The notes below the pieces were generated by a model that did not search any database, was not told where the DNA came from, and saw only the letters and a list, made by a program, of their open reading frames with translations. A stretch of 64,000 bases of DNA from Saxidomus purpurata (taxonomy: Eukaryota; Mollusca; Bivalvia; Venerida; Veneridae), in assembly GCA_022818135.1 (NCBI GenBank), contig JAFMSR010000018.1, positions 19,644,595-19,708,594 of the forward strand, written 5' to 3'. The translations under genes were made by a program, and so were the position numbers. Shown in pieces: positions 40,418 to 43,400 of the stretch (position 1 is its first letter; every line of letters starts with the position of its first letter).

Positions 40418-43400
40418 CTGAAATAATAACAACGAGATATTCCGAGGATAGTGGCAAGTGTGGTTATGATGTTAAAATTGACCAGATCTGAGTTCTTTAC
40501 ACGTCTTATTCTTCTCCTTATGAGTTAAATGCCCATTTTAACTACTAGTATATTTCAGTTAATTTTACTGGCAGGCAGTTTACCTGATCATCGTTCCTGG
40601 GTGGAACCAGTGCTAGAACCAAATGCTCCGTAAGAAACTACCAACTTACTCAAATAAGATATAAATTATGGTCAGTAGAAGGGTTTGAACCCCTGACCCT
40701 CAATCAATGATTTACAGTCACTGACTCTAACTACTCAACCACAGAGGTTGTCATTTTCTACATTGCAGTCTGTGTCAGTGTGTTATATTTCATCCCACAT
40801 GTATGACAAACTTACAATCTGAAACAGACACAGAGGCACACAGCCACATGCACCCACAAACACCAAACTACAACACCTATCCTATATTAGGTAACAAAAG
40901 GTCCAGGGTGTCCCTGAATTACTCATCTGAGAAAGCCGTATTTGATTTCTTCAACATTTGTGCTTGACTTTGCACTAGTTCATGAGTAGAAGATATTTAC
41001 AGATCTTTCTATTTTATTATAAAGTGGGCCCCTGTGTGCAGGGGACCAGACCCATTTTCCTGTGTGCAGGGGACCAGATGCATTTCGGATTTTTTTTTTT
41101 AAAGATCAACTCAAGAAAGCTACAGAGCATGTTTTTTTTTATATTCCCACAACTGTTTCATAAGTAGAAACAATTTGAAGATTTTCCTATCCCTCGTATT
41201 AAACAGTGGCCACTATCTAATCTTCTACTGTAACATTCTAAAAATAGTTATTAACATTCTTCTTTTTTTAAAATGATTTAAAACATTACTTTAACTTTCA
41301 TCTAACCTTGTTGCTATGATATAACATTTAATCAAATGAAACAATACATGCATCTTCCATTACTATTAAGAGACATACTATTATTTACCTCTGCTCAAGT
41401 CTGTTATACAACACAGTGTTATCTGTACGAAGTACAAACACAATATCAAACCATCTCTCGGGGAAGAATTCACAGCCATGATAATCTACGACGTTGCCAC
41501 CCTCGCGCATCTGGTCTTCCAGTTCATCAATCACCTGTCAGAATGTACACAGTGTTGTCAAATACAAGTACAATGTTAGATATACTAGTACAGTAGTAGT
41601 TAGTAACAAAGTCAACACTGAAATTTTTCTGTGAGTCAAAATGCCATCATTTTACTTTCCACTATCTTAATAGATTGGCAAATGTTGACTGTGCCTTTCA
41701 CCTACATAAAACTGACTTTTTCTTTGCTTAAAACAAGAAAGGCCTGGTACATGTATATGAAGGCAATGATTTAAATCCTCATGATTATTTGTGATACTCT
41801 TTCACAGTTATGAATAATGGTGTAATATGAATCCATACTATTTATTAGAGTTCAGACCAAGAAATTAATGTGAGATAATTTGTAATCACTTTACAAACAT
41901 TGTGACCACAAGAAGCTATGCCTGGGTTGGCAGAGTATTGCCCGCCCACGATTTCCCGAAAACCCGATCTAGGCAATATCCGTGAAATGGGCAGTCCTGG
42001 GCAATACTGGGTAATATATTTTTTTTTATAACTAAAACATGATTTTTTCAACTGTACTGGTGTTTAATTGCCTCATTTAACATTATATTACATTAGAATG
42101 AGTACATAGATGATATATAGTGTATTATGAATATGTTTAGATGTAAGAATCTGATAACTACACAAAATATATTTTTTTTATTCTGAACTATGAAACTTTA
42201 TTTACATCATGTGTACATTTCCCATGTCAAAGTGTCAATTTAAAGCAGACTTAACCACAAACTGACATTATTAACTACATAATCACTGTCTCTGATTCAT
42301 ATCAAGTAATATTGTACATTATTAAACAGTGATTACCAGTCTTATTCCTCTTTTCCCCTCAGCATGCTGTAAAAAACAATAACTTTGCACATTTCTGAAT
42401 GCCCAATTTGTTTCTGAGATTGTTCTGGATCAAACCAAAGTTTGAAAAAATCCTTTCAATTGAGGCAGAACTTGTGTCACGGTTCGGACTTAGTTCACAA
42501 TTGGGGAGAATATGTGTAAGCGGCCCGGTAGCTCAGTCGGTAGAGCATTCGCCCTGTAAGCGAAAGGCCCCGGGTTCGAGCCCCGGTCTGGCTGCACATT
42601 TTTCTCACCCTGTGACATGTGGCGCCCAACGGGGGACTGTGGCTGGATATATACTTCGAGATCATGTTTACCTTGTCTCTCTCTTAACCATGTACAAAAA
42701 TCGGACGAATTTCAATATGGTGGGGGAGTATGTCACGGTTTGGACTTAGTTCACTATTGGGGAGAATATGTGTAAGCGGCCCGGTAGCTCAGTCGGTAGA
42801 GCATTCGCCCTGTAAGCCAAAGGCCCCGGGTTAGAGCCCCAGTCTGGCTGCACATTTTTCTCACCCTGTGACACTTGCAGGCATTTTCAAGAGCTGCCTT
42901 GCAAAAAGACATAGCATTGGATCAACAGCACTACATTCTCTATACTTGACCACCATACAGATGTTAGTGTGTTCTTAACTCTCACTTCACTGGTCAAAGC
43001 CTTTGATAAGTTGACTTTGTTGCACATGAATGCCAACAGTGCAGGAACAAGTTCGATTTTTGTTCATGCAACATATCCTGTACACTTGATATGTGCTCTG
43101 GTTTCAGTTTTTTTTCCCCTGTACACTGTATGGAGAATATTGGCCATGAAGTGTTTTGCAGGCTTTACACTTAGCGATTTTTTTGGAATTTTCTTCAATC
43201 ACATCAAAAAAATTCCACACAGGGTTATTGTGCTTCATGATTGAAGTCGGATGGAAAAATGAGCCTCCCTACACAAAAAATCTATACATACTGAGAAGAC
43301 TGAAGTAAAGTTATCAATAAATACTAACTGTGACTTCAACTAACCATTAGTATGTATTCAGATTTGAAAGGGGCTATTGTTAACATATGGTTCATATATA

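Follow-up and report, generated by a model that had tools for sequence, protein, structure and literature searches.

A Probable Helenus-Type TRIM with tRNA-Like Sequence in Its LTRs in a Heterodont Bivalve

Two tRNA-like sequences lie in direct orientation, 256 bp apart, in a 64-kb stretch of bivalve DNA (hereafter the window; positions are counted from its first letter). Are they tRNA genes, neighboring SINEs or parts of a single transposable element and, if the last, which polymerase would make the RNA from which the element is copied? The initial annotation proposed a miniature LTR retrotransposon (TRIM) whose LTRs carry a tRNA-Lys-like Pol III promoter.

We searched for direct repeats with an ungapped method that is blind to TG/CA ends and obtained a single pair of 143-bp repeats, 97% identical, whose ends coincide exactly with TGTCAC and GTGACA. 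With the core between them, the repeats form an element of 399 bp (42475-42873), and the following features delimit it.

42471-42474, unstranded: left target site duplication (TSD), CTTG
42475-42617, + strand: 5′ LTR (LTR1), 143 bp, TGTCAC...GTGACA
42618-42730, + strand: internal region, 113 bp, without match to a known protein gene
42620-42637, + strand: primer-binding site (PBS)-like site starting with TGGCGCCCAACG, a match to human tRNA-Lys with the first 12 bases perfect
42720-42728, + strand: polypurine tract (PPT) GTGGGGGAG, ending 2 bp before LTR2
42731-42873, + strand: 3′ LTR (LTR2), 143 bp
42874-42877, unstranded: right TSD, CTTG

The LTRs differ at five of 143 positions (11, 25, 88, 103, and 111; Jukes-Cantor distance 0.036), and two of these differences, at positions 11 and 111, are of the CpG-decay type. 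The flanking sequence reads ...GAACTTG on the left and CTTGCAGG... on the right. Given the base composition, a 4-bp duplication has by itself a chance of about 0.006; CTTG encloses the whole 399-bp unit. The LTRs have drifted and the B box of LTR2 is damaged, so the insertion is not recent.

The PBS-like 12-mer TGGCGCCCAACG, which starts 2 bp past LTR1, is found at a single place in the window and was absent from all of 100 shuffles. Over 18 bases, the site agrees at 16 with the complement of the CCA-bearing 3′ end of human tRNA-Lys-CTT; the next-best site for that complement, with both strands of the 64 kb considered, agrees at 13. Priming by the element's own tRNA-like sequence is not supported: when the PBS was aligned locally with the reverse complement of the 3′ end of the tRNA-like block, the best alignment covered 12 positions with three mismatches and omitted the first four bases of the PBS. 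The same is stated of published Helenus elements, to which we return below (Kojima 2024, PMC10886601). The anatomy proposed in the initial annotation is borne out in its LTR pair with five differences and matching termini, its PBS and PPT at the two ends of the core, and its CTTG duplications.

No second copy was found in the window at up to three mismatches to the first 24 bp of the element. Exact-pattern scans of viral and prokaryotic contig collections also gave no match, which says nothing about absence, clam DNA being unlikely to be represented there. The window holds other repetitive sequence: a reverse transcriptase fragment, the remnant of a retroelement (56483-56875, − strand; Pfam RVT_1, 35 bits); 146-bp tandem arrays of at least two sequence families (50529-51932, 60163-61335, and 63039-63535); a minisatellite array with a 28-bp unit (58842-59546); and a block dense in inverted repeats (45860-47253), with arms of up to 161 nt that are 90% complementary, which is perhaps a fold-back element.

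A scan of the window against Rfam at gathering level gave two matches, both to tRNA, and none to 5S rRNA. One lies in each LTR, and the repeats extend 47 bp before and 23 bp after it. The features within the LTRs are as follows.

42522-42594, + strand: tRNA-like sequence in LTR1 (Rfam tRNA, 58.7 bits, E 3.9e-10; ARAGORN tRNA-Thr(TGT))
42529-42539, + strand: A box TAGCTCAGTCG of LTR1 (general A-box consensus, with TRGCY/YGG from PMC10886601)
42573-42583, + strand: B box GGTTCGAGCCC of LTR1, intact (GGTTC as in PMC10886601)
42599-42603, + strand: T5 run just past the tRNA-like block of LTR1, a possible Pol III terminator
42778-42850, + strand: tRNA-like sequence in LTR2, decayed (Rfam tRNA, 45.9 bits, E 1.4e-6)
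42855-42859, + strand: T5 run in LTR2, at which a full-length Pol III RNA would end

In LTR1, the A-box motif TAGCTCAGTCGG fits the Helenus pattern TRGCY..YGG and the B box fits GGTTC. In LTR2, the B box has mutated to GGTTAGAGCCC (GGTTC to GGTTA), and two further changes fall within the block. ARAGORN, run with bacterial settings, called the LTR1 copy tRNA-Thr(TGT) and left the LTR2 copy uncalled. For the LTR1 block, the best RNAfold structure has three arms and an acceptor stem shortened to 4 bp; for the LTR2 block, it fails to form a cloverleaf. Local alignment of the LTR1 block with human tRNAs scored 70 against tRNA-Lys-CTT and 47 against tRNA-Thr-TGT, where the maxima over 500 shuffles each were 35 and 31. 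By these scores, the tRNA-like body appears closer to tRNA-Lys than to tRNA-Thr, although its anticodon position reads TGT (Thr). The tRNA-like block that the initial annotation described inside each LTR is confirmed, with reservations. The tRNA match stands in both copies; in LTR2 the B box is lost and folding does not return a cloverleaf. The body is tRNA-Lys-like, as annotated; the anticodon position and the ARAGORN call are those of tRNA-Thr.

The core was described as non-coding, and it matches no known protein gene. A frame is nevertheless open for 90 amino acids across LTR1, the core, and the start of LTR2, and a protein database therefore offers an indirect look at relatives. Searching with this frame returned one candidate and one match, P0241, a 67-amino-acid sequence on a 3333-bp ENA contig (E 3.6e-13, 60% identity over 78%). 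Following the order and frame of our element, the alignment passes gapless from the tRNA-like block over the LTR end and through the PBS; it has a 7-residue gap in the core, and the U3 part is only weakly alike. We take P0241 to be a piece of a diverged relative of the element that was predicted as a protein, and not a gene. So read, this predicted protein suggests that the junction of LTR end and PBS exists outside the window.

The host was placed with a voltage-gated sodium channel gene in the window (Pfam Ion_trans), of which two last coding exons are present on the + strand, exon A (18661-20007) and exon B (28188-29495), 72% identical over 424 amino acids. Among the best 120 of 2278 matches to exon A (18745-20004; 7999 candidates scored), the named full-length relatives were Ruditapes philippinarum (83%), Mya arenaria (74%), Mactra antiquata and Mercenaria mercenaria (73% each), and Dreissena polymorpha (71%). 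Identities to pteriomorphs were lower, at 62% for Mytilus edulis and Ylistrum, 66% for Argopecten (over 91% of the query), 65% for Tegillarca (88%), and 61% for Magallana gigas, with comparable values for gastropods (63% for Aplysia and, over 87% of the query, 66% for Haliotis rubra). Exon B was 90% identical to Mercenaria and 85% to Mactra.

A tree was built from 41 sequences, the two window exons and 39 of 40 proteins chosen from 240 listed matches (Ruditapes P0108 was dropped by a length rule). Every named member of the clade that holds both exons (100/98) is a heterodont; this clade is joined to the freshwater mussel Potamilus (99/96), and the pteriomorphs form a clade apart (100/97). Exon A groups with Ruditapes and two further sequences, and exon B with Mercenaria, Mactra, and two further sequences. 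As each exon has its own heterodont relatives, the tree suggests that the final exon was duplicated long ago, giving alternative ends. Judged by these protein comparisons, the host is a heterodont bivalve near the venerids Ruditapes and Mercenaria, which agrees with the initial annotation's guess of a bivalve.

What, then, is the element? Kojima (2024, PMC10886601) gave the name Helenus to TRIMs with tRNA-derived sequence in the LTR, and our element has the traits of that group: it is short and non-coding with two LTRs, its LTRs are tRNA-derived and carry the boxes, and it has a PBS, a PPT, and a 4-bp TSD. We regard it as very probably a single insertion of a TRIM of the Helenus type (TRIMp3), an LTR retrotransposon that encodes no protein. 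As the design is that of the group described by Kojima, it is not a newly discovered one. The counterpart that the initial annotation drew to the 5S design of plant Cassandra elements, a tRNA promoter in an animal TRIM LTR, is of a kind already described (PMC10886601).

In bivalves, that study lists 51 Helenus families from five orders of Pteriomorphia, and it estimates an origin in the pteriomorph ancestor, over 470 Myr ago (PMC10886601). Neither Heterodonta nor Ruditapes is named in its main text. Among the listed titles and abstract openings on Helenus, TRIMp3, bivalve TRIMs, and clam tRNA genes, a literature lying mostly outside subscription journals, no heterodont Helenus is reported; a meeting report cites Helenus (PMC12859917, in part), and in the excerpted text of a paper on Mercenaria transposable elements, "miniature" is never used and "tRNA" appears once (PMC8905726). 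It is possible, if rather unlikely, that our element belongs to a particular Helenus family already catalogued or to one that Repbase added later. This reading is compatible with a Helenus-type identity and bears on novelty. The very close fit to the published description speaks for it; set against the main-text descriptions, where all mollusc hosts are Pteriomorphia, the heterodont host speaks against it (PMC10886601).

If the element is a Helenus-type TRIM, how would its RNA be made? From the A and B boxes only, we infer that the LTR block is a Pol III promoter. AATAAA and ATTAAA are absent from the + strand of the element, and a TATAAA-like box is absent from both LTRs (a single TATATA sits in the core), which suits transcription by Pol III. 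The T5 run begins at the fifth base after the tRNA-like block in both LTRs. Pol III would start near the 5′ end of the LTR1 block, at about 42518, pass the LTR1 T5 run at some rate, and end at the T5 run of LTR2. The product would be an RNA of about 340 nt with a tRNA-like block at both ends as its R repeat, dividing the LTR into a U3 of about 43 nt, an R of about 86 nt, and a U5 of about 14 nt. Most initiations would end at the first T5 run and give only a short tRNA-like RNA. On the full-length RNA, tRNA-Lys(CTT) would prime at the PBS, the first strand would transfer via R, and the PPT would prime the second strand. A borrowed Gypsy integrase would then insert the DNA and duplicate 4 bp of the target, so that the element would be moved in trans by an autonomous element, probably of the Gypsy type. 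Published Helenus elements are probably mobilised by Gypsy as well (PMC10886601).

Taken alone, the Pol III step of this cycle seems to us likely. As a T5 run closely follows the LTR1 block, full-length RNA would require Pol III to read through it. Because the same T5 run must be passed once and obeyed once, read-through is the weak point of the cycle: with T5 inside R, what would let transcription run past the terminator of LTR1 and yet halt at that of LTR2? Work in yeast, as excerpted from PMC9278858, makes read-through of the LTR1 run plausible by analogy. There, five Ts are the minimal terminator in vitro and a weak one, and it takes six to terminate fairly efficiently; the first T-tract is passed quite often, termination at it being only partly efficient. 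The same excerpts also speak against read-through, in that a weak T-tract gains strength from neighboring RNA structure such as the acceptor stem of a tRNA. For published Helenus, too, Pol III transcription is predicted (PMC10886601).

A different source of full-length RNA would leave the Helenus-type identity intact and oppose the Pol III step only. Pol II could make this RNA from U3, and the tRNA-like block would be a passenger or have a role in packaging or in producing short RNA. Two points favor this possibility: autonomous LTR elements use Pol II, and with a T5 run just after the block, most Pol III transcripts would be expected to terminate within LTR1. Against it stand the LTRs, without AATAAA/ATTAAA and without a TATA-like box, and the conservation of A and B boxes reported across Helenus families (PMC10886601). 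We consider Pol II transcription improbable and retain Pol III as the likely polymerase.

That the two blocks are instead a pair of working tRNA-Thr(TGT) genes is very improbable. The ARAGORN call in LTR1 fits such a pair, but the acceptor stem (GGCCCGG/TCTGGCT), as we read it, is mismatched at one position and wobble-paired at two, the B box is lost in LTR2, and the body is nearer to tRNA-Lys, an isotype conflict of the kind treated as non-functional in PMC10886601. We give almost no credence to two tRNA-derived SINEs that inserted independently next to each other, or to a tRNA pseudogene duplicated in tandem: two blocks in direct orientation would be expected, but the repeats run beyond the blocks to end exactly at TGTCAC and GTGACA, the PBS and PPT lie at opposite ends of the core, and the TSD encloses the whole unit, so that the alternative of two SINE insertions, against which the initial annotation wished its proposal checked, is disfavored.

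If the Helenus-type reading is correct, the LTRs may matter for tRNA gene counts in clams. In the flat-oyster genome paper (PMC9679248, as excerpted), 791 of 2091 predicted tRNAs in Mercenaria mercenaria are tRNA-Thr, compared with 339 of the 1985 predicted for Ostrea edulis and 153 of the 940 for Crassostrea virginica, and the excerpted text gives no cause for the excess. Helenus-like LTRs might account for the 791 tRNA-Thr predictions in Mercenaria. This link is supported by the tRNA-Thr call of our LTR in a relative of Mercenaria and by a precedent in rust fungi, where much of the predicted tRNA excess falls in Helenus copies (PMC10886601). In its simple form, the link is weakened by several points from the same excerpts of PMC9679248: 282 of the 339 O. 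edulis tRNA-Thr copies have the anticodon AGU, not TGU; the Thr anticodon in Mercenaria is not stated there; Mercenaria also has 465 tRNA-Ala, for which our element offers no explanation; and the tRNA-Ser excess of O. edulis is stated, from alignment scores, not to lie inside a repeat.

We consider, as a distinct possibility, a joint reading with three parts: that Helenus is widespread in heterodonts too, being older than the split between heterodonts and Pteriomorphia or having crossed from one to the other; that its LTRs are the hundreds of venerid "tRNA-Thr genes," including the 791 of Mercenaria; and that these LTRs are leaky Pol III units with a weak T5 that make mostly short tRNA-like RNA from LTR1 and now and then a full-length RNA. 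If Helenus lives in heterodonts, its origin moves back beyond the ancestor of Pteriomorphia, or a transfer is needed. If the whole reading is true, clam tRNA gene counts are inflated by transposon LTRs.

How does the element compare with known systems? tRNA-derived SINEs (SINE2) have a tRNA-like Pol III promoter, lack LTRs, PBS, and PPT, and are moved by LINEs. Our element shares the promoter-like block and differs in its LTR-PBS-PPT-LTR order within one TSD, which rules out membership. The bivalve element biv-TRIM (PMC6934838, as excerpted) is likewise a TRIM of venerids and other bivalves, with a GGGG-rich PPT. It differs in having terminal repeats (TDRs) of 202-218 bp, a core of 77-80 bp, and no clear PBS, where our element has 143 bp and 113 bp; the excerpts do not mention a tRNA-like block in its TDR. 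With these sizes, and with the conserved segment TGATCCCAAAGGAC of the biv-TRIM core absent from the window at up to two mismatches, membership was rejected.

Two other TRIMs carry a small-RNA promoter in the LTR. Ajax of nemerteans resembles our element in this respect and differs in its 5S-derived block and 5-bp TSD (PMC10886601). Plant Cassandra elements share a Pol III promoter block with a terminator inside the LTR (PMC7215508, as excerpted), and their RNA reportedly extends from the 5S block in the 5′ LTR as far as the one in the 3′ LTR (PMC10886601, in part). Cassandra, however, carries 5S rRNA sequence, whereas the Rfam matches of our element are to tRNA only, and membership in a 5S group was ruled out.

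With Helenus, our element shares the tRNA-derived LTR block with A and B boxes, which are conserved across the published families, the PBS and PPT, and the 4-bp TSD typical of animal Helenus (PMC10886601). The predicted primer, tRNA-Lys, is among the six primer tRNAs of bivalve Helenus, seven bivalve families can likewise be read as tRNA-Thr, and 399 bp falls within the published range of 311-1263 bp (the founding screen took elements under 1000 bp; PMC10886601). The difference lies in the host, heterodont here and, among the molluscs of that main text, always pteriomorph. The kind of element is thus already described, and what may be new is its presence in a heterodont.
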